Virus record (IMG/VR): IMGVR_UViG_3300037042_004253
Coordinates: 1 to 23,807 of that record
Origin: a virus
DNA length: 23,807 nucleotides
Strand: one strand, 5' to 3'
The first letter of the stretch is position 1, and every line of letters starts with the position of its first letter. The notes under the pieces were generated by a model, which ran no database searches, was not told where the DNA came from, and saw nothing but the letters and a program-made list of their open reading frames with translations. The position numbers were made by a program, and so were the translations under genes. Positions 1,305 through 23,807 of the stretch are shown in pieces.

Positions 1305-1550
1305 ATGAAAACATTTTTAAAATGGGCCGAGGAAAATGAGTTTGATCTTCCAATGATAACAGATGCTCCTGAAGGCGAGAAAGCCACTAAGGAAAATACT
1401 AAACGAACTGGTATGACAGACAATTATCCTGATGCCTACAGCAAAGGTCAATATTGCCCTGCATATATGCCACCAATTAAAGGTACGGCATTTTTAGATC
1501 TGAAACAAAAAGCCTCCAAGAGTTATGGTGGTCAAAAGGCTGCTAACTAG
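1305..1550 (+). CDS. Small unknown protein with capsid-targeting-like N-terminus
   Basis: 81 residues, hydrophilic, with no recognised domain. It has a clear Shine-Dalgarno site (AGAGGAAA, about 7 nt before ATG) and is followed at once by a strong terminator, so it looks like a single-gene transcription unit. The first residues, MKTFLKWAEENEF, resemble the start of T4 internal head proteins (MKTYQEFIAEA), but there is no L-x-E or I-x-E cleavage site here, so a head-packaging role is only suggested. The middle is rich in Tyr, Pro and Gly (NYPDAYSKGQYCPAYMPP). It may be a small virion or internal head protein. Confidence 0.62.
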   Translation: MKTFLKWAEENEFDLPMITDAPEGEKATKENTKRTGMTDNYPDAYSKGQYCPAYMPPIKGTAFLDLKQKASKSYGGQKAAN

Positions 1551-2544: not shown

Positions 2545-3801
2545 TTACGTGGCATTCGGGACTCTAAACTCCGTACCATCAAACAAAAATAAGCCATTGG
2601 GTTTCCAATAGAAACCTGTGCCTAGATTCATTCTCAGCTTACGCAAGTCTTTAGGTAATGACGGTAAATTTTGTTCATGATTAATCGCCGCATTCAAGTC
2701 AGCGTCACAAACAAAACCACAAGATTTACATTTGTAAACCTTGCCCTTCCTATTTGCTTTACGTACTAAACCACAATTGGAACATCTTTGACTACGATAC
2801 ATGCAACATTGTTCAACCACTTGGACCCCAAGTAGTTCACAACGGCTAATAATCTTGTCTCGTATTTCTGGGTTATTCCAATGACTCATCTCCCTCGATT
2901 GTCTATTTTTATAACCAATGTTCCATATCTTCTCTAAATTAATTCTTTTCACACCGACTAAGTTTAATTTATTGATTGACCAATGAACGAAATTACTTCG
3001 ATGATCTTGTGCTTTCCTAAAACTCTTGCTTCCTTTTATTTTCCTTGATAGTTTCTTGATAATCTTGGTTAGTGTCCAACCATCATTGTTAGTTTGTGGA
3101 GTCTTGGTATTATTGCTCAATGTAAGCACATCAGTTTTACCTTGGTCTGCCCCAACAACGATTCCTTCAGTTATAGGTTCTACTTCATTTTCCCAGCGTA
3201 AATCAATGGATTTGTTCTTGAATAAGAAACTTGATTTCAACCTTCCATTCAATTTATTTGAGTGTTTTGTATAATTAATCGGTAATCTTATTCTACCAAA
3301 GTTTTCACCAATACTCTTTAGTTGAATGAAGGCATCGAAGTGGTTATCAGTAAATTCAACATCACAACATTTACTTGATAGTTCGGCATTTATATTGCTT
3401 ACATTGGGTTTTTTAGGTGTGCCCCTTCTCAACGCTCGGGCAAAAACTTTACTTATTTTACCTTTTAGCTCATTATAAACATGTAAGCGTTTTCGTTGTT
3501 TTTCTACACTTGCTCCTAGGACTGCACATAATTGCATGGTAAGACTACTCAATGCCCTAGCACTCAATGTAGTGTTTAAGTTGAACTGATTATAATCAAT
3601 AAAATTTGGGTGATTTAGAAGGTTCTTATGTGGAGCGAAAATTACCTTATTGCCTTTTTTATCTAACCATTCATAACCATTGTCCCAAATTTTGTCCAAG
3701 ATGATCTTAAAGACTCTATGATATTCCTTCAGGAAAGAACGATAGATTGCTTTCTTTGTTGTATTTGAGTAATTTATAGTATGGACTGATGTTCTAATCA
3801 T
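2545..3801 (-). CDS. tnpB: TnpB RNA-guided nuclease of an IS607-type element
   Basis: 418 residues, full length for TnpB. TnpB proteins are RuvC-type DNA endonucleases guided by an RNA (omega-RNA) from the element's end, and they favour element retention. All three expected RuvC residues are visible: D219 in VGADQG, E290 in INLEKIW and D368 in CDADLNAA. A zinc-ribbon sits between the last two, with C340-x2-C343 and C358-x2-C361. The N-terminal part (1-200) is the basic, helical region that binds RNA and the target-adjacent motif. The gene overlaps the upstream recombinase gene by 8 bp, so the two are probably co-translated. The last codons cover a DNA motif shared with the second TnpB at 23279. 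The family call is sure; activity is inferred from the intact residues. Confidence 0.93.
   Translation of the reverse strand: MIRTSVHTINYSNTTKKAIYRSFLKEYHRVFKIILDKIWDNGYEWLDKKGNKVIFAPHKNLLNHPNFIDYNQFNLNTTLSARALSSLTMQLCAVLGASVEKQRKRLHVYNELKGKISKVFARALRRGTPKKPNVSNINAELSSKCCDVEFTDNHFDAFIQLKSIGENFGRIRLPINYTKHSNKLNGRLKSSFLFKNKSIDLRWENEVEPITEGIVVGADQGKTDVLTLSNNTKTPQTNNDGWTLTKIIKKLSRKIKGSKSFRKAQDHRSNFVHWSINKLNLVGVKRINLEKIWNIGYKNRQSREMSHWNNPEIRDKIISRCELLGVQVVEQCCMYRSQRCSNCGLVRKANRKGKVYKCKSCGFVCDADLNAAINHEQNLPSLPKDLRKLRMNLGTGFYWKPNGLFLFDGTEFRVPNAT
2551..2572 (-). other. Conserved tnpB 3'-end motif, candidate omega-RNA scaffold end
   Basis: Read on the plus strand this is GGCATTCGGGACTCTAAACTCC with its first base at 2551. 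The same block with five changes occurs at the same place in the second tnpB (23291-23312). The omega-RNA of TnpB elements is known to cover the tnpB 3' end, so a conserved DNA block here may be part of its scaffold. Since it also encodes protein (TEFRVPNA compared with QESIVPGA), protein constraint is an alternative explanation. Confidence 0.4.
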
Positions 3802-4369
3802 TGGTTTCAGAGATTACTTCTTTTATTTTATTTGTTTTTTTATGCCCTCTTCTAACTCCATATAACCTACAACAGAAAGAAGTGGTAATAGCAATCATGT
3901 CTTTAATAATATCGGTTTCTTCTTCATAATCTTTATTCATAACAATAATTTGACAACCCAATTTGAGCAATAATTTTTCCAAATAATTAAATCCAAATCT
4001 TGTCAACCTATCTTTGTGTTCAACAATGATTATGGTCGGCTTTGAGTCAATCATTTTCCACAATCGTTTACGATCATCATTCATTCCGCTAGCAATTTCT
4101 TTATAAATTTTGGTAATTGACAAACCTTTTGTTCCACAAAATTCAATACATCTTTCAATTTGCCTTTGTAGGTCATCTTTTTTATCATGAGAAGAAACTC
4201 TTGAATAAATAACAACATTTTCTTTGTTGACAATTTCTTTGTTTTCTGATACCATAATAGTACCAGTAGGTGTTTTGTAAGCATGAACAGGCATCTTGTT
4301 TTGGTTAAACCAATTATATGCCGTGTTGTAATGCAAACCTTGTTGTCTAGCCCAATCTGATAGTTTCAT
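3794..4369 (-). CDS. tnpA: IS607-type serine recombinase (TnpA)
   Basis: 191 residues. Residues 1-40 form a MerR-like helix-turn-helix (LSDWARQQGLHYNTAYNWF) for DNA binding. A small serine-recombinase catalytic domain follows, with nucleophile S59 in YSRVSS, the DLQRQ helix, and the R121/R124 pair in EHKDRLTRFGF. This order, DNA-binding domain before the catalytic domain, is typical of IS607 transposases and the reverse of resolvases. It would move the element by cut-and-join without target duplication. There is no Shine-Dalgarno site; instead CATATGTA ends 5 nt before the ATG, the same arrangement as at several phage genes here. The 67-residue frame inside it (4081-4284) is a shadow. Confidence 0.92.
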   Translation of the reverse strand: MKLSDWARQQGLHYNTAYNWFNQNKMPVHAYKTPTGTIMVSENKEIVNKENVVIYSRVSSHDKKDDLQRQIERCIEFCGTKGLSITKIYKEIASGMNDDRKRLWKMIDSKPTIIIVEHKDRLTRFGFNYLEKLLLKLGCQIIVMNKDYEEETDIIKDMIAITTSFCCRLYGVRRGHKKTNKIKEVISETND

Positions 4370-4418: not shown

Positions 4419-4835
4419 TTAATTAAAATGTTTAGACACTATTAAAATGTATTTTTTTATCACTTTTTTTAATTCTGGGTGTAGTTTATAGTTTTTAATA
4501 TTTTTAAAATTGACCCACGCCCATCTGGTATGCTCATTACTTAATTTAATTGCTGATGGCTTATTTGTTTTATAGAAAAAACAAGTCCAATTATATTCAT
4601 TTGTTGCATCTATTTTTTTGCCCATTATTTTACCTATTTCTTCTTCAGATTCTCTGATAGCTGTTTTCAATGGTGTTTCTCCCTTTTCTGAGTGGCCACC
4701 GACCAAACCCCAAGTGTTTGGATTTTTTGTGCCCTCTGCTCTTTTTAATAAAAGAACACTTTTGCCATCCGTAAAGAATATGCCAGCCGCATCAGAATGC
4801 TTGGCTTCAGATAATAGCCATTCCTTGAATGTCAC
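4419..4835 (-). CDS. NUDIX hydrolase with capsid-targeting-like N-terminus
   Basis: 138 residues. The Nudix box is complete: G47-x5-E53-x7-R61-E62-x2-E65-E66-x-G68, the Mg2+-binding catalytic loop that hydrolyses nucleoside diphosphates linked to another group. The flanking sequence (WGLVGGHSEKGET before, a WAWVNF strand after) suits a small nucleotide-pool-cleaning or (d)NTP pyrophosphatase type; the substrate cannot be told. The first 11 residues, MTFKEWLLSEA, look like a T4 capsid-targeting sequence with an L-S-E/A cleavage site, followed directly by the Nudix fold. Translation starts at GTG in a GTGA overlap with the upstream gene, so the two are translationally coupled. The head-packaging idea is inference; the enzyme family is sure. 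Confidence 0.92.
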   Translation of the reverse strand: MTFKEWLLSEAKHSDAAGIFFTDGKSVLLLKRAEGTKNPNTWGLVGGHSEKGETPLKTAIRESEEEIGKIMGKKIDATNEYNWTCFFYKTNKPSAIKLSNEHTRWAWVNFKNIKNYKLHPELKKVIKKYILIVSKHFN

Positions 4836-5338
4836 TTTGGACCTCGTTTGAGAGGTATTTTTTTCAAGGTTTGTCTTTCTTGCGTCTTATCAGGTTCTTG
4901 TCGCAATTTGTGCATGGCGTTTCTCAACTCTTTAACTATCTCGGCAGCCGAATCACCATCACATTTTTTAGTAGATTGAATGGAAACTGTTGGCGGAACT
5001 CTATTTTTATTATAAAATCCTTTGGAAATTATAAAACACCCACCATCATGCTCAGGATGAAAATGAACCATCCCAACCCACTCCCCATCATCCCAATTCC
5101 TTGTAGAAATTATTAATCTAATAGGCTCTTCTTCATAAACTTGTTTCACATGATAGCCACTTTGCTTCATGGCAGCACTAACATAACCTAAACAAATCTT
5201 GCTAAATGCCTTTAAAATCTCTGGTTTTTCACTCCTGAAATTTACCTCGATACTATACCTTGTAGCTGTAGAAGCCTCTGCCAAAGTTGTTTGGTCTGTA
5301 ATTGTATCGGCAAAATCTATGTATTCTCTAAAATCCAT
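4832..5338 (-). CDS. Unknown phage protein, coupled to the NUDIX gene
   Basis: 168 residues, no recognised domain. The N-terminus, MDFREYIDFADTI, again resembles the short leader seen in several proteins here, and TLAEA at residues 17-21 offers an L-A-E/A site of the prohead-protease type. The middle (YSIEVNFRSEKPEILKAFSKI, then IRLIISTRNWDDGEWVGMVHFHPEHDGGCFIIS) reads as a mixed alpha/beta domain. The C-terminus is basic (QERQTLKKIPLKRGPK). There is no Shine-Dalgarno site; the octamer CATATATA ends 5 nt before the ATG. The stop overlaps the NUDIX start as GTGA, which makes a two-gene unit. It may be an internal head protein. Confidence 0.65.
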   Translation of the reverse strand: MDFREYIDFADTITDQTTLAEASTATRYSIEVNFRSEKPEILKAFSKICLGYVSAAMKQSGYHVKQVYEEEPIRLIISTRNWDDGEWVGMVHFHPEHDGGCFIISKGFYNKNRVPPTVSIQSTKKCDGDSAAEIVKELRNAMHKLRQEPDKTQERQTLKKIPLKRGPK

Positions 5339-6251: not shown

Positions 6252-8186
6252 TTATACATCCATTTGAGGGCAATATGGGAATGAATGTTTTTGAGAATAA
6301 CCCTTACCAGTTTTAATGGCGTCTATTACATAGTTAAACGCCTCTATAGTTTGTTCTTTCCTACGCTCATAGTGAGCCGACCATCCTAGCACGCTAGCAT
6401 CTCCGTGTACGTTGTGGTGGAGGAGTTGCTTATCTTTAATCTTCTCTTTAAATTCATTTAATTTATCTTCAAGAAATGGTAAAAAATCCTTACCATTTTC
6501 TCCCAATTTTGCTAAACAATGCCCAAAATCACCAATTCCGCCCATTTCACTCCACAAAGGAAGCAACTTCTTATAAAATGCTTGAACAGCGGGTGTATCT
6601 GTGCCAGTATTGGCAAGCGTAGATGCTATCTCTTTTAATATCCCTGCCTTAAATTTTCCAGCATCCTTTTCTGACTCTTTTTCTAAATCAAAAGAATCAA
6701 CATCAAAATTAACAAGTATTTTGACAAGCCTTTCTGGAATTGGTTTAAATATTGTTAATTTTCTGATATAATCTGAAATTTTACCACCTACTGCCCACAC
6801 AGAACTTTGCCAGTCAATGCTAAATTCTGGATTATCTGGCCTAAATCCTTGTTCAAATAAATTGCTTACTGCCCTTCTAATTGTTGTTACCAACTCTGGA
6901 CTTTCTTTGGTTAGCCTCTCTAAATCCCAACCAGATATGCTTTTCAAAGCGCCTTCGTCAGTAAATTGTGGAAATTTACTAATCAAAAGCGATTTTAAAG
7001 CTCCGTTGGTGTTTTGTTTCATTAAGTTATCAAAAATATCTTTGGTAACAAATTCTGGGTAATTTATATAAAATCTGGTCTTGTTAGCTGGTACAGTCAT
7101 ATTGAACATACGCCAGTGCGAGGGAATTAAACCGCCGGTATCTAAATCATCTGTTAGTAAATTTTTTATCTTTAAAACAAATTCTTTTGGCCAATCTTTA
7201 GACTTTAAAAATCCATCAAAAGCTAATTGAAAATATTGAAAATATTTGTTTTTGTCTGTGCCAGGTTTGGACCAACGATTAATCCAAGATATAATTTTTT
7301 TCCTATCTTCAGGATGTGATGGATCTGGTGCTATTAATTCTTTGTTTGAAAAACTATCTGACCACTGTCCCCCCATCTTTTTGTAACGACCAGGAACTAT
7401 TCTTCCTTGTTTTGAATTCAACCATTCTTTTACTTTTTCCAAAAATCCAGGAACCTCTGTTCCATAAACGGTTTCTTCAGGTATTGCTACAGATCCCTTC
7501 TTCCCATCAAATCGCCTAATATGAATCCTGGCAAGAGGTCTCTTTATCTCTTTGTCGTCAGAACGGATCAAATAAGCTACGAATCCACCATTCTTTACTT
7601 CTCGATATATGTCACTAGAATGCGCACCTCCTGCTAAATTCATGCAACTAGTCCATCCTCTACCAGTTGACATTGATGCCACATCATGTGGGTCCATACT
7701 AATCATGACATAAAAAGAAGTTTGTTGAACACGATTAGGGTCGTTCTGGAAACTGTTAGTTAAATTATTAAAATAATTGGCAGTAGCAGCAAGTATTTCT
7801 TGATACTTATAATCAGATAACTTTTTGTGTACATAATAATCATTTTCAATATTAGATTTGTCTTCTAATTCGGCAATAGGCAATATCTTGCTTATTCTAA
7901 ATATTTTCTTGGGCATACCAACAGGACAAGCATGTCCTAATCGGTAATCAACTAATTGATAGCCGTTAGCTGAAAGGGGAAATCCTTGAGAACCACCATG
8001 AAAATCAGATAACATGTCTTTAATTTCTGCCTCTGTTTCCGAAGATATAGTGGTTGAAAAAGGTAAATAAACTCTGGAACCATCTGGAAACCAATGCTTA
8101 AACGGAAAAGACCTGGCTAATGGTTCAATCTTGCCCCTAAAGGGTTCGTATTCTTCTATTCCTTCTAACCAGAGCTTGAATTGCAT
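6252..8186 (-). CDS. Large conserved-looking phage protein of unknown function, candidate head-packaged protein
   Basis: 644 residues from the ATG at 8186. The frame is open for 15 codons further up, but those codons lie in the end of the upstream nuclease gene. Starting at 8186 gives the leader MQFKLWLEGIEEYEPF, like those of other proteins here, with CCTAAATA ending 4 nt before the ATG. Residues ~165-280 look like a compact domain: YVMISMDPHDVASMSTGRGWTSCM and then GGFVAYLIRSDD, RPLARIHIRRF and AIPEETVYGTEVPGF. I have the impression of similar blocks in other large phages but know of no assigned function. The C-terminal half is helical and repeat-free, ending in a basic, histidine-rich tail. 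No catalytic motif could be assigned with honesty. Confidence 0.72.
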   Translation of the reverse strand: MQFKLWLEGIEEYEPFRGKIEPLARSFPFKHWFPDGSRVYLPFSTTISSETEAEIKDMLSDFHGGSQGFPLSANGYQLVDYRLGHACPVGMPKKIFRISKILPIAELEDKSNIENDYYVHKKLSDYKYQEILAATANYFNNLTNSFQNDPNRVQQTSFYVMISMDPHDVASMSTGRGWTSCMNLAGGAHSSDIYREVKNGGFVAYLIRSDDKEIKRPLARIHIRRFDGKKGSVAIPEETVYGTEVPGFLEKVKEWLNSKQGRIVPGRYKKMGGQWSDSFSNKELIAPDPSHPEDRKKIISWINRWSKPGTDKNKYFQYFQLAFDGFLKSKDWPKEFVLKIKNLLTDDLDTGGLIPSHWRMFNMTVPANKTRFYINYPEFVTKDIFDNLMKQNTNGALKSLLISKFPQFTDEGALKSISGWDLERLTKESPELVTTIRRAVSNLFEQGFRPDNPEFSIDWQSSVWAVGGKISDYIRKLTIFKPIPERLVKILVNFDVDSFDLEKESEKDAGKFKAGILKEIASTLANTGTDTPAVQAFYKKLLPLWSEMGGIGDFGHCLAKLGENGKDFLPFLEDKLNEFKEKIKDKQLLHHNVHGDASVLGWSAHYERRKEQTIEAFNYVIDAIKTGKGYSQKHSFPYCPQMDV

Positions 8187-9832
8187 AAAGTATTTAGGGA
8201 GAACAACCATCTTTTCTTGCCACAATCCCAAATTCTTGCCAATCCTCTCTCATGCGACCATTTTGCTTCAGTTATATCTTTAGGGCAGCCTGTGAGAGAC
8301 TTCTTTTGAGATTGTTTGCTCAATCGCTCATAAGGACGCTTTGCATTCACATATGAATAATCAGGAGAAAGTTCCTCTCCTAAAACAAATCCCAATTGCT
8401 TGTAAACATTTCCTTGACTCCATCTATTGTCACTCCAAGTAATAATTTCTTTATACTTGTTTTGAATAGCCCACTCTTTGCACTTCTTGAAAAGCTTACT
8501 TGCACCACCAATCACTTGCACATCAGACCTGAAACAAAGACGATCTAATGTAAGTTTTTCTGAATTCCTGTGATGCCTTCCTAAAGACATGGCGGCAACA
8601 ATTTCGTTATCATGTTCCAAAACATAGAAGACCAACCCCAAATTGTTGCTGGCTTGAAGATGATGTTTATTACAAAATTGGTTAAATTTATGTCGATCAC
8701 ATTCATTGATTTTACACTTTCTAGCATATACTTTGTTCTTTTGTTTTCCCAAAATAGAACATAAAATACCTTTGCACTGTTCCTGCTTTGTTTTCCACTC
8801 ATCCTCAAAAATTGTAATAAGTTGGACGCCTTGTTTTAAACAAGAGATATACTTATCATAATGATAAAACTTCAACCTGGGGCTTGGAGATAATTCATTG
8901 TGCCAAAATAAACCACAATATTCTATTCCAATATTGGTATTTTTGTCATACAAATCAATTTCTTGAGTCCCTAGCAAAGAATAATCTTTCTCAAAAGAAA
9001 ACCCCATTGAATTCAACCAAGTCTGAATATCTTTTTGAGTTTTGCCATAAATCTGATTGCCTTGTAAACATAAAGGATTTGGCACACCAAATTTATACAT
9101 ACATGTTTTAATAAATCTTTCTCTATATTCCTTTGTTTGGGAATAATTTTGAACACCATATCTTTCTAAATTGGTCTTCTTGGCTTTATTTCGATTTTCT
9201 TCCAGTTGGGATGGGTGTTCAACACCATAACGCTTTAAACAGGTTTGTTTTCTTTGTTTCCAGTATGCCTCGGTTTGAACATAGCTTTCCTCACCAAACT
9301 TTTCTTTACAAGTTTTGTTTCGCTTTTTTAGACACTCTGGATTTTGCATCACATGTTCTGCGCCATATTTTTCTAAATTGGTTGCACTTCTTTTTTCTGC
9401 AAATCCTTCAGTATTGGCGTAATTTTTGTGTCCATATTTTTTCAAATTTGTCTCTTGTTGTTTATTTCGGATATCTTCTGATTGAAGTGGACTTTCAACT
9501 CCGTATTTGTCTAATAAACTTTGTTTTCTTTTCTCTTTAAAATCATCACTTTCAAAATACTCTTTTGTACCATATTTTTCTAGATTTGTTTTTTGTTGTT
9601 TTTGTTTAAATGTTTCTGTGTCAAATATTGTGGGGACACCATGTTTGATTATACATATTTCTTTTTGTTTGGCTGCTCTACAAGCCTTTTCGCCACAACT
9701 ATCTTTATTGATAATTTTATTATGCCGTTCTCTGCTCTTTTTAATTCGTTGAAACTCTTTGCCACAATAATCGCATTTTAATTGGATTAGTGAACGAATT
9801 GTTTGGGTGTCGTAGTTGGATTGGAGGATCAT
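8165..9832 (-). CDS. Repeat-array homing-endonuclease-like protein with Vsr-like nuclease and GNAT-like domain (copy 1)
   Basis: 555 residues. Order of parts: (1) a zinc finger, C20-x2-C23 with C46 and C51; (2) eight consecutive 23-residue units from residue 63 to 246, each starting K/R-Y/F/H-G-V and ending near K-T-N-L-E, plus a partial ninth; (3) a nuclease domain of PD-(D/E)XK/Vsr type with D293 in EIDLY, E304 in GIEYCG and H311 in FWHNE, then FEDEW at 342-346; (4) an acetyltransferase-like domain around 370-500 (GLVFYVLEHDNEIVAAMSLGRHHRN, then QVIGGASKLFKKC); (5) the end motif ARIWDCGKKRW. This resembles free-standing Hef-like homing endonucleases. It starts in an ATGA overlap with its paralogue. 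Compared with that copy, it has nine extra C-terminal residues that run 22 bp into the next gene. Confidence 0.85.
   Translation of the reverse strand: MILQSNYDTQTIRSLIQLKCDYCGKEFQRIKKSRERHNKIINKDSCGEKACRAAKQKEICIIKHGVPTIFDTETFKQKQQKTNLEKYGTKEYFESDDFKEKRKQSLLDKYGVESPLQSEDIRNKQQETNLKKYGHKNYANTEGFAEKRSATNLEKYGAEHVMQNPECLKKRNKTCKEKFGEESYVQTEAYWKQRKQTCLKRYGVEHPSQLEENRNKAKKTNLERYGVQNYSQTKEYRERFIKTCMYKFGVPNPLCLQGNQIYGKTQKDIQTWLNSMGFSFEKDYSLLGTQEIDLYDKNTNIGIEYCGLFWHNELSPSPRLKFYHYDKYISCLKQGVQLITIFEDEWKTKQEQCKGILCSILGKQKNKVYARKCKINECDRHKFNQFCNKHHLQASNNLGLVFYVLEHDNEIVAAMSLGRHHRNSEKLTLDRLCFRSDVQVIGGASKLFKKCKEWAIQNKYKEIITWSDNRWSQGNVYKQLGFVLGEELSPDYSYVNAKRPYERLSKQSQKKSLTGCPKDITEAKWSHERGLARIWDCGKKRWLFSLNTLCNSSSG
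8191..8198 (-). promoter_or_regulatory. Late-promoter-like octamer before the gene at 8186
   Basis: CCTAAATA, then CTTT, then ATG. It lies inside the last codons of the upstream nuclease gene and helps to decide the start of the 644-residue protein. Confidence 0.5.
9095..9646 (-). repeat. Eight 69-bp coding repeats in nuclease copy 1
   Basis: The units translate to 23-residue repeats of the pattern K-Y-G-V-x5-Q-x3-x4-K-x2-T-N-L-E. The spacing is exact across all eight units, while the residues after K-Y-G vary from unit to unit. Confidence 0.85.
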
Positions 9833-11532
9833 ATGTTAAATATCCATCTTTTCTTGCCACAATCCCAAATACGAGCAAAACCATTGTTTAACATCCATTG
9901 CTTTTCTGTTTTTGTGGTTGGACAACCTATGTTTTTCTTTTTACAAGATTGTTTATTAATCCGTATGTGACCACGGCAATCAACATAGCTATAATCTGGA
10001 GGCAGTTCTCCATCTAATTTAAATTGCATATTTTTATAAATGTTTCCATCACTCCAACGATTATCGCTCCAACTAATTATTTCTTTGTAATTATTATCTT
10101 TAGCCCATGTAATACATTGTGCAAATAACTTACTTGCACCACCAATTATTTGTGTATCTTTTTTGAAGCAAAGTCTATTTAATGTGATTTGTTCTTTATT
10201 TACCTTACGATGATGACAAGATAGTCCTATAATTCCTAATAATTCATTGTTGTCAAATAATCCAAAAGCAGCTTTAAATTTTGTGCCACCCATAATATGA
10301 TTGTCTTCACAAAAACTGTTGCATACAGAATTATCAATTTTTTCTATTTTACATTTTCTTGCCATTATTCTTTGAGAAAATTTTCTCAATATTGATTTAA
10401 TAAAATCTTTACAATGTTCTTGTTTGTGTCGCCACTCATCCTCAAAAATAGTAATCAAACGAATTCCTTGTTGATTACATTTATTAAATTTCTCATAATG
10501 ATAAGATCTTGTTCTGGGTTCTGGAGAAAATTCATTGTGCCAATAAAGTCCACAATATTCTATGGCTAATTTTAAATTTTCATTATATAAGTCTAGTTCT
10601 TTTCCGCCTAATACTGAATAATTTTTTACAAAGGGAAATCCAAGAGAACTCAGCCAATCTTTAATTTCATTTTCTGTTTTTCCAAATTTACATAAAGGAT
10701 AGGCTGTCCCATATCTTTTAATATTTGTATTTATTGCTTTTAAAAGTATATCTTTATTTTGTAATGGGTTGGGGACGCCATATCTCTTTAAGCACGTTGC
10801 TTTTTTCCTTTCTTTACATTCGTCTGTTTGACTGTATGATTCAACACCATAACGATCTAAACAAGTTGCTTTAAATCTGTCCATTATTTTCTTATCTTGT
10901 AAAGCATGATCGACTCCGTATTTTTTTCTAAACGCTTTTTTTAGGTTTTCTTTGGCGATCTCGGTTTGCATAACACTATCTACACCATATCTTTCTTGGC
11001 AAGTATTCTTTACACCATCCTTCCATTCTTGCGTTTGAGATGGATGGTTTGTTCCATATCTAGAAATATTTGTTTTTCTAGTTTTTGTTTTTACTGATTC
11101 ACTTTGGGTAGCGTATTCTGTCCCATATTTTTCAAGACATGATTTCTTTTTTATTTCTTTCATTTCTTGAGACGACAAATAACTTGTTGTGCCATATTTT
11201 TTTAGACAGGTTTTTTTAATTTTTTCTTTTATTTCTGGTAGTTTTGTAGGATTGCAGCCATATTTTTCTATAAGTTTATTTTTAGCTTTATCTTTATTTA
11301 ATTCTTTATAATTATCCCCATATAATAATCTTTGTGATTCTTCTCTTTTTTTGGGGGTGCATTTAGAACAACTATCTTTTTGCAATATTTTTTTTCCTAC
11401 CAAGATATTGCGTTTAGTTCTTGTAAATTCAATTCCACAATAATCACAAACACAAAAAATATCACTATAAACTTTTACTGTTTCAAAATCATATCCAAAT
11501 TGTTCTTTAGTTTTTTCAAATAATATCATCAT
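9829..11532 (-). CDS. Repeat-array homing-endonuclease-like protein with Vsr-like nuclease and GNAT-like domain (copy 2)
   Basis: 567 residues, the same architecture as the gene directly downstream: zinc finger (CDYC at 29-32, with C55 and C58), eight 22-23-residue repeats at residues 90-272, a nuclease domain with KELDLYNENLKLAIEYCGLYW (split here: ELDLY, IEYCG, WHNE), FEDEW, a GNAT-like domain containing GLSCHHRK and QIIGGASKLFAQC, and the end ARIWDCGKKRWIF. The two proteins are clearly paralogues but have drifted far apart in the repeats. The gene overlaps the 55-residue ribbon-helix-helix gene upstream by 17 bp and the downstream copy by 4 bp (ATGA), so all three form one translationally coupled unit. 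Homing endonucleases spread by cutting copies of the locus that lack them. Family call is good; cutting activity is inferred. Confidence 0.85.
   Translation of the reverse strand: MMILFEKTKEQFGYDFETVKVYSDIFCVCDYCGIEFTRTKRNILVGKKILQKDSCSKCTPKKREESQRLLYGDNYKELNKDKAKNKLIEKYGCNPTKLPEIKEKIKKTCLKKYGTTSYLSSQEMKEIKKKSCLEKYGTEYATQSESVKTKTRKTNISRYGTNHPSQTQEWKDGVKNTCQERYGVDSVMQTEIAKENLKKAFRKKYGVDHALQDKKIMDRFKATCLDRYGVESYSQTDECKERKKATCLKRYGVPNPLQNKDILLKAINTNIKRYGTAYPLCKFGKTENEIKDWLSSLGFPFVKNYSVLGGKELDLYNENLKLAIEYCGLYWHNEFSPEPRTRSYHYEKFNKCNQQGIRLITIFEDEWRHKQEHCKDFIKSILRKFSQRIMARKCKIEKIDNSVCNSFCEDNHIMGGTKFKAAFGLFDNNELLGIIGLSCHHRKVNKEQITLNRLCFKKDTQIIGGASKLFAQCITWAKDNNYKEIISWSDNRWSDGNIYKNMQFKLDGELPPDYSYVDCRGHIRINKQSCKKKNIGCPTTKTEKQWMLNNGFARIWDCGKKRWIFNI
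10717..11265 (-). repeat. Eight coding repeats (one 66 bp, seven 69 bp) in nuclease copy 2
   Basis: Protein units of 22-23 residues with the same pattern as in copy 1 (R/K-Y-G-V-x5-Q ... K-x-T-C-L-x). The number of units equals that of copy 1 even though their sequences have diverged. Confidence 0.85.
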
Positions 11533-12706: not shown

Positions 12707-13390
12707 ATGAAAACTTTAAAAGAATACACATTGTTAAAAGAAGGGCCATTACCTCCAAATTGGACTCCAAATAAAAGACCAGAACCAAAACCAATAGCAC
12801 CAACTGGACCAGATCCTAGTAGTGCTTGGGTACAGTGGTTGGGAAAATTGCAAAAAGCATTGATAAACAACTTAAACAGCGTGGTTGATCGCTATGAACA
12901 AAAAATGACACAAGCGGTACAAGCCGTGCATACAACTGTGACCAATCCAACCAATCCAACCAATCCAACCAATCCAACCAATCCAACTGCTAATCCAGCC
13001 AATCCAAATTGGTTTAAAGGAAATCAATCTACTTGGAATAGACAAGGTATTTCAGGAATAGCAAAACGATTTTTAGGTGGTGGTAATTGGACTGGAGAGG
13101 CTTGTGAAGTAGCTTATGAATTTGGTCCAACATTGACTGAATACAATAAAATAAAGGACGAAGTATTATTAGAAGTAGAAAAACTTTCTGATACAATATT
13201 TTTTGAGGCTACTGGCGTTCCACAATTTGATGCCATTTTGTCGCAGTTTAAAGATGAAGTTAAGAAATTAATTATTTCTAATATTGCTTGGGCGCAACAA
13301 GGTATGTGGGCTTTTGTGCAAAAAAGAAGAGCGGCTGAACAACAGGCAAAACAACCAATACAGCCTGAAGATAAAACTTTGACTAAATAA
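12707..13390 (+). CDS. Unknown protein with capsid-targeting-like leader and Thr-Asn-Pro linker
   Basis: 227 residues. The leader MKTLKEYTLLKEG closely resembles the T4 head-targeting sequence MKTYQEFIAEA and ends in L-K-E/G, a fitting prohead-protease site. Then comes a proline-rich stretch, a helical part (60-78), a linker of five T-N-P units plus variants, and a C-terminal domain from about 100 with predicted long helices (LTEYNKIKDEVLLEVEKLSD, then LSQFKDEVKKLIISNIAWAQ). A Trp- and Gly-rich patch precedes it. I recognise no enzyme. It has no Shine-Dalgarno site and carries the octamer ACTAAATA before the ATG. It is divergent from gp13 with a 47-bp gap. A head-internal, possibly ejected, protein is my best inference. 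Confidence 0.72.
   Translation: MKTLKEYTLLKEGPLPPNWTPNKRPEPKPIAPTGPDPSSAWVQWLGKLQKALINNLNSVVDRYEQKMTQAVQAVHTTVTNPTNPTNPTNPTNPTANPANPNWFKGNQSTWNRQGISGIAKRFLGGGNWTGEACEVAYEFGPTLTEYNKIKDEVLLEVEKLSDTIFFEATGVPQFDAILSQFKDEVKKLIISNIAWAQQGMWAFVQKRRAAEQQAKQPIQPEDKTLTK
12941..12985 (+). repeat. Five perfect copies of a 9-bp repeat coding for a T-N-P linker
   Basis: Unit ACCAATCCA, five times without a mismatch, then decayed copies to about 13006. It stays in frame and probably varies in copy number by slippage. Confidence 0.95.
13382..13389 (+). promoter_or_regulatory. Late-promoter-like octamer before the gene at 13396
   Basis: ACTAAATA, then ATAAAT, then ATG. The octamer is identical to the one at 12694 and overlaps the last codons of the preceding gene. 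Confidence 0.45.
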
Positions 13391-13395
13391 TAAAT

Positions 13396-13560
13396 ATGAA
13401 TTTTAAAAAATGGTTAGAAACATATGCTGTATATGATGGCACCCAAGGAACCTATAATTGGTGGGGAAGTGTAAACAATTCTACTGGACGCTCTATTGAA
13501 GGATATCCAATAGGCACCAAAGAAGACAAAAAACCTAAAAAGAAGAAGAAGAAAAAATGA
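13396..13560 (+). CDS. 54-residue protein with capsid-targeting-like N-terminus and lysine tail
   Basis: The product starts MNFKKWLETYAVYDG, contains a Tyr/Trp/Gly-rich centre (GTQGTYNWWGSVNN) and ends in KKPKKKKKK, a strongly basic tail fit for binding DNA. There is no L-x-E site, so processing as in T4 is not supported. It begins 5 bp after the stop of the gene at 12707, has an octamer ACTAAATA before the ATG and no Shine-Dalgarno site. Its stop overlaps the next start as ATGA, which speaks for a real gene. The purine run of the lysine codons may serve as ribosome site for the next gene. A small DNA-condensing virion protein is a guess. Confidence 0.62.
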   Translation: MNFKKWLETYAVYDGTQGTYNWWGSVNNSTGRSIEGYPIGTKEDKKPKKKKKKK

Positions 13561-17008: not shown

Positions 17009-17167
17009 ATGAAAGAAGAAATAGAATATGGTTGGCGGCAGCGTAATGATGATAGAGAGAAAAAATATGGAAAAATTCGAGATATGGCTAAGGATGTCAA
17101 AAAAATTGTTAAACAAAATCAACTAAAGGCTAGCAAAGGTTTCAAGGAATGGTTTCTTGGATTATGA
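17009..17167 (+). CDS. 52-residue highly charged protein
   Basis: Starts MKEEIEYGWRQRNDD, continues with a lysine-rich helix (KIRDMAKDVKKIVKQNQLK) and ends KGFKEWFLGL. It starts 3 bp after the gp14 stop and has a TATAAATT element before the ATG instead of a Shine-Dalgarno site. Nothing in it matches a family I know. Position between gp14 and gp15 would suit a small neck assembly factor. It is too short for usual gene-calling limits. Confidence 0.55.
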   Translation: MKEEIEYGWRQRNDDREKKYGKIRDMAKDVKKIVKQNQLKASKGFKEWFLGL

Positions 17168-20949: not shown

Positions 20950-21525
20950 ATGGCTGGTAATTTGAATAATATGGGACTTTGGGAACTTGGAAATTCTAAA
21001 ACAATTTTTAAGAGAAAGTTCCGTTGGACTTTTGCGGTTAACCAAATACCGTGTGGTGGCGGGTCTATTCCTGAAAGTTTTGTAAAAACTGCTAATCGTC
21101 CGTCTTATAATTTTGAAGAAACACAAATTGATTTCTTACATGGAAGAACTTGGATTCCTGGAAAAATAACGTGGGAAGATATGGAAGTAGTTTACTATGA
21201 TGTGGCAACAACAGTTATACAACCGTTATGGGCTTGGCTAATTTCTGTTTATGATGTTGGTGGAAGTTTTAAAATGAATAGTACCACTGGCATAGGTGAA
21301 GCTGGAAACGCCAAAGCTACTCTTACTATGTATGATGGTTGTGGCACAGTATTAGAACTATGGGTAATGTCCCGCATTTGGCCAAAAAGTGTTAATTTTG
21401 GAGAATTGGATTATAGTAATTCAGAACCATGTACTATAACACTTGGACTCAAATATAGTAATGCTCAATATATTCCAATTTGCCCAAGCTTTAATGTAAG
21501 CTGTGGTTGCGTAGGTTGTGGATAA
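20950..21525 (+). CDS. 19: Tail tube protein, T4 gp19-like (first copy)
   Basis: 191 residues (T4: 163). Its family forms the hexameric rings of the inner tail tube. The start FKRKFRWTFAVNQIPCGGG is the first strand pair, and the C-terminal signature is clear: LELWVMSRIWPKSVNFGELDYSNSE and CTITLGLKYSNAQY, where T4 has KEIEIKGLWPTNVGELQLDWDSNNEIQTFEVTLALDYWE in the same order (given here only by its parts). Shine-Dalgarno AAGGAG lies 6 nt before the ATG, 21 bp after the sheath stop. A cysteine-rich C-terminal tail (CPSFNVSCGCVGCG) is absent from T4 and from the second copy. A strong terminator follows. Confidence 0.88.
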   Translation: MAGNLNNMGLWELGNSKTIFKRKFRWTFAVNQIPCGGGSIPESFVKTANRPSYNFEETQIDFLHGRTWIPGKITWEDMEVVYYDVATTVIQPLWAWLISVYDVGGSFKMNSTTGIGEAGNAKATLTMYDGCGTVLELWVMSRIWPKSVNFGELDYSNSEPCTITLGLKYSNAQYIPICPSFNVSCGCVGCG

Positions 21526-21532
21526 TATATCA

Positions 21533-21560
21533 AATAATGCCCCTAATTAGGGGCATTATT
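21533..21560 (+). terminator. Intrinsic terminator between the two tube genes
   Basis: A 28-bp perfect palindrome: arms AATAATGCCCC and GGGGCATTATT around TAATTA. It forms a 12-13-bp stem with a G/C core and is followed by TTGTTTTG. It lies 8 nt after the gp19 stop, so it ends the 17346-21525 unit and allows separate control of the second tube gene. Confidence 0.9.
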
Positions 21561-21622
21561 GTTTTGCCTTTCAGACATTTAACCTTCCTTAGTCATAAAT
21601 CAATTAAAGAATAGGAAACACT

Positions 21623-22147
21623 ATGGCACAAAGTATGTCTTTGGATTTTGGATTTAATGGTAATGTCTGCATAAAAAGAAAATTTCGTTGGTTATTGAAA
21701 ATACCATATGTATGTGGTGGTGATGTAGGAATGAATTGTTTGCCACCAGCGAAAGGTGCTAGACCTACTCTATCTTTTAAAGAGGCAGAAGCTCAACACT
21801 TGACAGAAACAGTTTACTTTCCAATGAAACCTGATTGGAAACCAATGCCCATTACTTTATATGATCTTAAAAAAAATGAAAATCCTGTTTATGCTTGGTT
21901 TAAAAACTTATATGATCCGTCTAAAGGTTCTTGGACAATACCAGGGTCTCAATCTTTTGGCTCACAAGCGTTTAAACAAGAAGTTAAATTAGAATTGTAT
22001 AGTGGTTGTGGAGAAATTATAGAAAAATGGATTATTGAAGGCTGTTGGCCACAAGAAATTAACTTTGGTGATTTGGATATGAGCAGTGGTGAGTATTGCA
22101 CAATAGATATGATGTTGCGTTATGATCGAGCTTATTTAGTAGTTTAA
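21623..22147 (+). CDS. Second tail-tube-like protein, gp19 paralogue
   Basis: 174 residues, in the same family as the preceding gene: IKRKFRWLLKIPYVCGGD at the start, ITLYDLKKNENPVYAWFKNLYDP (here split: ITLYDL, YAWFKNLYDP) in the middle, and EIIEKWIIEGCWPQEINFGDLD followed by YCTIDMMLRYDRAYL at the end, in line with T4 gp19. It lacks the cysteine tail of the first copy. Shine-Dalgarno AGGAAA is 7 nt before the ATG, and a terminator separates it from the first copy, so its level is set independently. It may be a tube-initiator or terminator ring, or a tube variant used in part of the tail. The stop overlaps the convergent gene by 4 bp. Confidence 0.83.
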   Translation: MAQSMSLDFGFNGNVCIKRKFRWLLKIPYVCGGDVGMNCLPPAKGARPTLSFKEAEAQHLTETVYFPMKPDWKPMPITLYDLKKNENPVYAWFKNLYDPSKGSWTIPGSQSFGSQAFKQEVKLELYSGCGEIIEKWIIEGCWPQEINFGDLDMSSGEYCTIDMMLRYDRAYLVV

Positions 22148-23278: not shown

Positions 23279-23807
23279 TCAAAGTTTTTGGGCACCAGGG
23301 ACTATAGACTCCTGACCTACAACCTGCCAATAGAAACCTTTTCTATTATTGTGTTGTAATCGTTGTTGCTTACTAATTGCAGGCAACTCAAGAACAATAT
23401 TCTTGGAAGCATTCAAGTCCGAATCACAAATGAATTTACATTGTGAACACCTAAATTGCTTACCACGACGATTGCTCTTGCGAACCCAACCACATTGACT
23501 ACACCGCTGACTTGTGTAAGTTGGATTTACTTTGCTAATTTGGACACCAAATTTAGAACAAAGTGAACCCAACTTGTCATAAAGTATAGTATAAGTCCAA
23601 TGTGATAACCACCGTGGTGACTTATTACCTTTTCTCAAATTCTTGATATCTTCTAATTTCAATTGCTTTACATCGGTTAAATTTAATTGGTTCAATGACC
23701 AATGAATATAATTTTTTCTATGACTTTGTGCTTTCTCAAACTCATGACTACCTTTCTTTTTTCTTGATAATCTTTGTTGTATTTTTTGTAAATCCCAACC
23801 ATGTTTA
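23279..23807 (-). CDS. tnpB: Second TnpB, 5' part outside window
   Basis: The frame stays open to the right edge (KHGWDLQKIQQRLSRKKKGS), so only the C-terminal ~175 residues are seen. It holds the second RuvC acid (E in QLKLEDIKNL), the zinc ribbon (SQRCSQCG and FRCSQCKF, two Cys pairs) and the last RuvC acid (second D in CDSDLNAS). It matches the TnpB at 2545 block for block, for example HRKNYIHWSLNQLNL with HRSNFVHWSINKLNL and KGFYWQ with TGFYWK, but is clearly a different, diverged element. A TTG start at 23695 is not real since the frame continues upstream. Which transposase goes with it cannot be seen. Confidence 0.9.
   Translation of the reverse strand, partial: KHGWDLQKIQQRLSRKKKGSHEFEKAQSHRKNYIHWSLNQLNLTDVKQLKLEDIKNLRKGNKSPRWLSHWTYTILYDKLGSLCSKFGVQISKVNPTYTSQRCSQCGWVRKSNRRGKQFRCSQCKFICDSDLNASKNIVLELPAISKQQRLQHNNRKGFYWQVVGQESIVPGAQKL
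23291..23312 (-). other. Conserved tnpB 3'-end motif, second copy
   Basis: On the plus strand it starts GGCACCAGGGACTATAGACT and ends CC. It matches 17 of 22 bases of the block at 2551-2572, at the same distance from the tnpB stop codon within about 6 bp. Confidence 0.4.

Follow-up and report, generated by a model that had tools for sequence, protein, structure and literature searches.

Does the small Nudix hydrolase encoded at this locus carry a signal that sends it into the phage head, and is that signal a leader removed as in T4? The preliminary description had read the start of the protein as a head-targeting leader of the T4 capsid-targeting kind, cut after residue 10. The stretch of DNA analysed as a whole, here called the window, is a 23,807-base virus record from an uncultured, large T4-like phage, in which neck, sheath-stabiliser, sheath and tube genes of T4 type are present. 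The following features are needed first (a slash marks a cut site).

4419..4835, minus strand: Nudix hydrolase gene, 138 aa, GTG start, Pfam PF00293
4803..4835, minus strand: tag MTFKEWLLSEA at the N-terminus, with F3-x-x-W6-L7 as its core and a helix predicted over 3-10
4803..4814, minus strand: candidate prohead-protease site L8-S9-E10/A11, which fits [ILM]-x-E and has P1 where T4 IPII/IPIII have it
4629..4697, minus strand: Nudix box GHSEKGETPLKTAIRESEEEIGK, with residues invariant in relatives
4841..4845, minus strand: GAGGT Shine-Dalgarno of the Nudix gene, 5 nt upstream of GTG, within the KRGPK codons of the partner gene
4832..5338, minus strand: partner gene, 168 aa, alpha/beta domain; in relatives it usually adjoins the Nudix gene, upstream of it

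The ORF at 4419-4835 (minus strand) translates as V(M)TFKEWLLSEAKHSDAAGIFFTDG..., and the protein belongs to the Nudix hydrolases (PF00293), as judged by the Pfam score (residues 13-128, E=1e-17), the box residues and the structure matches. G47, E53, R61, E62, E65, E66 and G68 of the Nudix box were invariant in 31 relatives, and the AlphaFold model (mean pLDDT 92) matched many PDB Nudix structures. Sequence matches singled out no substrate; those of a NudE-type enzyme would be ADP-ribose, FAD or Ap3A. The GTG start overlaps the stop of the upstream gene by 4 nt (GTGA); this partner/Nudix junction was kept across the 16 loci compared, and at many loci the next gene takes its Shine-Dalgarno from the codons for the KRGPK that ends the partner. 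Beyond the 3' end of the Nudix gene, at a distance of 49 bp, lies an IS607-like pair (TnpB-like and serine-recombinase-like, 2545-4369, assigned by eye).

Single-sequence scans with the Nudix protein or the 659-aa gene discussed below returned no viral relatives. Three-sequence alignments used as queries recovered them where single sequences failed, and the alignment-based scans gave 80 Nudix loci and 80 partner loci. No cellular relative was confirmed in one genome scan with a single peptide pattern.

The 11 residues MTFKEWLLSEA were located at the expected start of the enzyme, and the Nudix fold follows behind them: a lower-confidence helix at 3-10 (mean pLDDT 66 over residues 1-10) precedes a domain that Pfam recognises from residue 13 and that is modelled confidently from residue 16. 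T4 IPII and IPIII start with MKTYQEFIAE/A in the deposited genome, so that the Glu preceding the cut is residue 10 both in T4 and in the window protein. The proposed equality of distances thus holds for the P1 Glu, but not for the second aromatic residue, which is residue 6 in the window leader and residue 7 in T4. Tags of the same type were found at the homologous position in the Nudix proteins of L155/L248, L225, L206, L232/L166 and G007. As a control, the leader search in T4 returned only IPI, IPII, IPIII and gp61.1, and no C-terminal tag; the first three are known internal head proteins (PMC3012670), and IPI has the layout seen in the clade, i.e. tag, linker and ITE/A.

Similar leaders were found on further proteins, in the window and across the clade, in agreement with the preliminary description, which had suggested looking for them. 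The additional candidates in the window are as follows.

1305..1550, plus strand: 81-aa protein, N-tag MKTFLKWAEEN; W01 (487260) and G001 (191280) have similar proteins with an N-tag
6252..8186, minus strand: 644-aa protein, likely start MQFKLWLEGIEE; N-tag at an internal ATG, TAAATA box 4 nt ahead
12707..13390, plus strand: 227-aa protein, N-tag-like MKTLKEYTLLKE/G plus NPT repeats, by sequence inspection
13396..13560, plus strand: 54-aa protein, N-tag MNFKKWLETY; small N-tagged counterparts in relatives
17009..17167, plus strand: 52-aa ORF, C-terminal tag-like end KGFKEWFLGL, by its sequence

Tag-type starts in the window are thus those at 1305, 4835, 5338, 8186 and 13396, with a looser form at 12707. 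The 659-aa ORF listed for the 6252..8186 gene starts too early, and the coding status of the 17009..17167 ORF is unsure because no homologue was found. Elsewhere in the window, two adjacent similar proteins with KYG motif repeats and an endonuclease-like end overlap by 4 nt (8165-11532), two tail-tube-like genes, both matching phrog_4542, stand in tandem (20950-22147), and a TnpB-like C-terminal piece was assigned by eye (23279-23695).

For the clade, 54 related contigs from a tail-sheath search were pooled with the loci around the partner gene; tags were counted over 2,090 non-redundant proteins, with the expectation taken from protein interiors. In its strict form, x[FY].[EDQ]W, the motif stood 41 times at the first N-terminal positions, where 0.4 would be expected, N-terminal F..W tags were about 100-fold over background, and two control motifs showed no comparable N-terminal peak. 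The motif has few residues, and some of its matches in the genome lists are on unrelated proteins, e.g. at primase-like N-termini; amphipathic starts might simply be common and the resemblance to T4 accidental. Such an accident is very improbable given the position-specific enrichment and the flat controls, and leaders are also kept at a fixed locus while the bodies behind them differ. The resemblance of the Nudix leader is not due to chance: the window protein carries an N-terminal tag of the MKTYQEFI type that is common to unrelated proteins. The C-terminal form was observed 25 times against 1.8 expected. A genome-wide use of C-terminal tags was considered and toned down, as 15 of the 25 strict cases are Nudix proteins; C-terminal tags are scarce outside this family, and the HNH and GSDPEF families have look-alike ends that are part of the protein itself.

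The position of the tag was then compared among 43 non-redundant Nudix relatives (42 tabulated plus L206). Six were tagged only at the N-terminus, 32 only at the C-terminus, one at both (a weak case) and four at neither, so an N-terminal position is not the rule in this family. N and C tags exclude one another (Fisher p=2e-4). N-tagged proteins terminate where the C-tag starts in the others, and around the C-motif both linker and tail differ in length. The Nudix tag changed ends more than once: in the core-domain tree the N label required four changes, at least two of them forced by supported branches, with many deeper forks not resolved, and the N-tagged G007 protein is sister to the C-tagged L230 protein (support 99/98). 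A second, unrelated family appears to switch ends too, its member G007_77345 having the N-tag MKSYQEF and the homologue G001_63928 (E=2e-7) the C-tag ITFKEWYAAQELR. Its presence at the front of the enzyme in some relatives and at the back in others suggests a loading tag able to act from either end.

Three further arrangements were seen. L178 and L183 (about 3830-4369) hold more distant Nudix relatives in which the domain is preceded by MNIFDAYKIIKESNVNRF, a T4-like tag that includes IKE/S. Several C-tagged Nudix proteins, in L214, L230, L237 and L251, are extended at the N-terminus by a CxxC zinc-ribbon-like segment whose last residues, xxEQFHRIG, may be a former cut site. One family (W01 488200, G001 200665) has tag-like peptides at both ends of one protein.

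An explanation by a classical T4-type capsid-targeting sequence only, with the leader cut after LSE and the C-motifs being an unrelated part of the Nudix C-terminal helix, would account for LSE/A with P1 at residue 10 and for the conserved cut site of the partner. We consider it improbable, though the strongest of the alternatives, since it leaves aside the mutual exclusion of N and C motifs, the ending of N-tagged proteins where the C-tag of relatives begins, the variable linkers and tails at the C-motif, the repeated change of end on the tree and the apparent switch in a second family.

The slot behind the partner gene holds differing proteins with similar leaders, from which N-tags are inferred to arise by body replacement, i.e. 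a cargo body would be swapped behind a fixed leader. MSFKLWLES starts a Nudix protein in L232, and in L219 it starts an unrelated protein of 111 aa in the same slot. In the best homologue from the phage collection, LR756511.1 (a 595-kb record with the same arrangement), the Nudix protein starts with MRRAAGILYTDG, without a leader, and ends with NHSFKEWLSQRI, and a 135-aa gene starting MSFQQWLENK stands between the partner and Nudix genes. In the 98-kb relative G007 the partner directly adjoins the Nudix gene, which starts with MIEFSKWREKKLNEQ.

Cleavage after residue 10 did not hold up as the defining feature of the leader, although the tag and a compatible L-S-E/A are there: [ILM]-x-E is present in 3/6 N-tagged Nudix relatives (LSE/A in the window, IVE/D in L225, LNE/Q in G007, no canonical site in L206, L232 and L248), and most relatives are C-tagged. 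The partner is a stronger case for a cut leader than the Nudix enzyme.

5276..5338, minus strand: partner leader MDFREYIDFADTITDQTTLAE, ending at the putative cut; tag helix 3-13, then a disordered cut-site region

All 46 non-redundant partner homologues have [LIMFV]-x-E 2-6 residues ahead of the RYS(V/I)EV domain, and the P1 residue Glu21 is invariant among homologues; leaders are 8-60 aa long as called, with some starts possibly mis-called. In the AlphaFold model, helix 3-13 is followed by a stretch with pLDDT <50 at 14-23, which holds the cut site, and then by the folded domain. Comparison of the partner with the sequences of solved structures gave no hit; in Pfam the window protein had no match and single homologues had weak scattered matches only, and in PHROG there was one weak match and none clear. 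Foldseek gave nothing better than E 0.02, and the best VIA-align Z of 7.7 was within background. One phage-collection row was left out of the input of the structure runs. The partner homologues in the phage collection are confined to one metagenomic record.

Across the clade, [ILM]-x-E with P1 at 8-20 was found in 47/133 N-tagged proteins (35 percent) vs 321/1957 others (16 percent; p=4e-7). C-terminal tags show no obvious site for cleavage; docking, not leader removal, thus seems to be the conserved feature. The gp21-like protease for which the preliminary description had recommended a search was found in relatives, but not in the 23.8-kb window, a fragment without protease or capsid genes: an S77 (gp21-type) protease is encoded in 4/14 and 17/28 records. 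G001 and W01 have it in a T4-like head module, clustered with the genes for portal, capsid and a scaffold-like protein, and the capsid precursors have L-[MFI]-N-E/[AVI] ahead of the conserved region. In G001 the scaffold-like gene is at 124153-125076 and that of a candidate core protein of 610 aa at 121568-123400.

TAAATA is the heart of the T4-type late promoter. N-tagged genes had a TATAAATA-like late box in the 40 nt upstream 5.9 times as often as other genes (p=3e-8), an excess that fits late expression. TAAATA also peaks 4-5 nt before the ATG (28 cases in the clade genomes G001, G004, G007 and W01; in the window, TAAATACTTTATG at 8186), a distance that would give late mRNAs nearly without leader.

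Short terminal aromatic motifs can also recruit proteins to other shared phage partners, e.g. the sliding clamp or the late transcription machinery, as do the T4 gp43, gp33 and gp55 ends (SLDFLFG, NTLDFLL, SLDFLYEAND). These ends, however, have LDFL in common and not F-x-E-W, so the motif comparison lent no support to a sliding-clamp reading. The clade tag resembles the leaders of T4 internal head proteins instead, and the partner's conserved [LIMFV]-x-E site suits head assembly, as does the excess of late-promoter-like boxes. Recruitment to a target other than the head is accordingly unlikely.

The best explanation, to which we give a probability of about 70%, is a head-loading tag that is independent of the terminus, with optional trimming by a protease. 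It draws together what the computations found, i.e. the tag, its enrichment, its use at one end, the cut-like partner site, and the relatives' protease and head module; the four of 43 Nudix relatives without a recognisable tag are a counterpoint. We infer that the F-x-x-W-L peptide would act as a docking tag like the T4 capsid-targeting sequence and load late-made proteins into the head core, with one tag per protein at the N- or C-terminus of the cargo in a clade of large T4-like phages. Some N-tags would be cut by the gp21-type protease, clearly so in the partner and possibly at LSE/A in the Nudix enzyme, which would be packaged, pass into the host together with the DNA and probably hydrolyse a nucleotide there. 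The fuller version, a head-loading code F-x-[ED]-W-[LIV] at either end of dozens of cargoes including Nudix, with bodies swapped behind a fixed leader, has somewhat better than even odds.

To our knowledge, known head-loading signals are few. A tag working from either end, if true, would help to predict which proteins huge phages inject, and would provide a list of early-acting candidates as well as naturally occurring loading tags for either terminus. The Nudix enzyme and its partner would then be a concrete candidate pair for taking over the host or evading its defences.

Targeting of T4 IPI, IPII and IPIII by a capsid-targeting sequence goes back to Mullaney and Black 1996, as related in PMC5694885 and PMC3012670. 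As far as described in these texts and in PMC9024508, the head-loading signals of T4, SPN3US and P1 are all N-terminal, and we met no report of a tag switching protein ends in the open-licence literature searched. P1 DarB is similar to the clade tag in having an N-terminal capsid signal: its N-terminal residues send a reporter to the capsid, the cargo is anti-restriction, and the text reports no sequence consensus for the Dar N-termini (PMC9024508). Head packaging of phage Nudix enzymes, directed against nucleotide-derived signals, was already proposed by Iyer and colleagues (PMC9503650) on the basis of late gene clusters and of fusion with portal, MuF or protease; a targeting sequence is absent from the paper text, and the link found here is a small tag, not a fusion. 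T4 NudE, also a phage Nudix hydrolase and encoded near ipII and ipIII, has no N- or C-terminal tag and only distant sequence similarity to the window enzyme. Like the T4 internal proteins, the clade has a [TS]-[FY]-x-x-[FWY]-L-like N-tag on unrelated proteins, a putative hydrophobic-x-Glu cut site and, in the relatives of the window, a gp21-family protease. Unlike in T4, the tag is on many more proteins and, in the Nudix enzymes, more often C-terminal.
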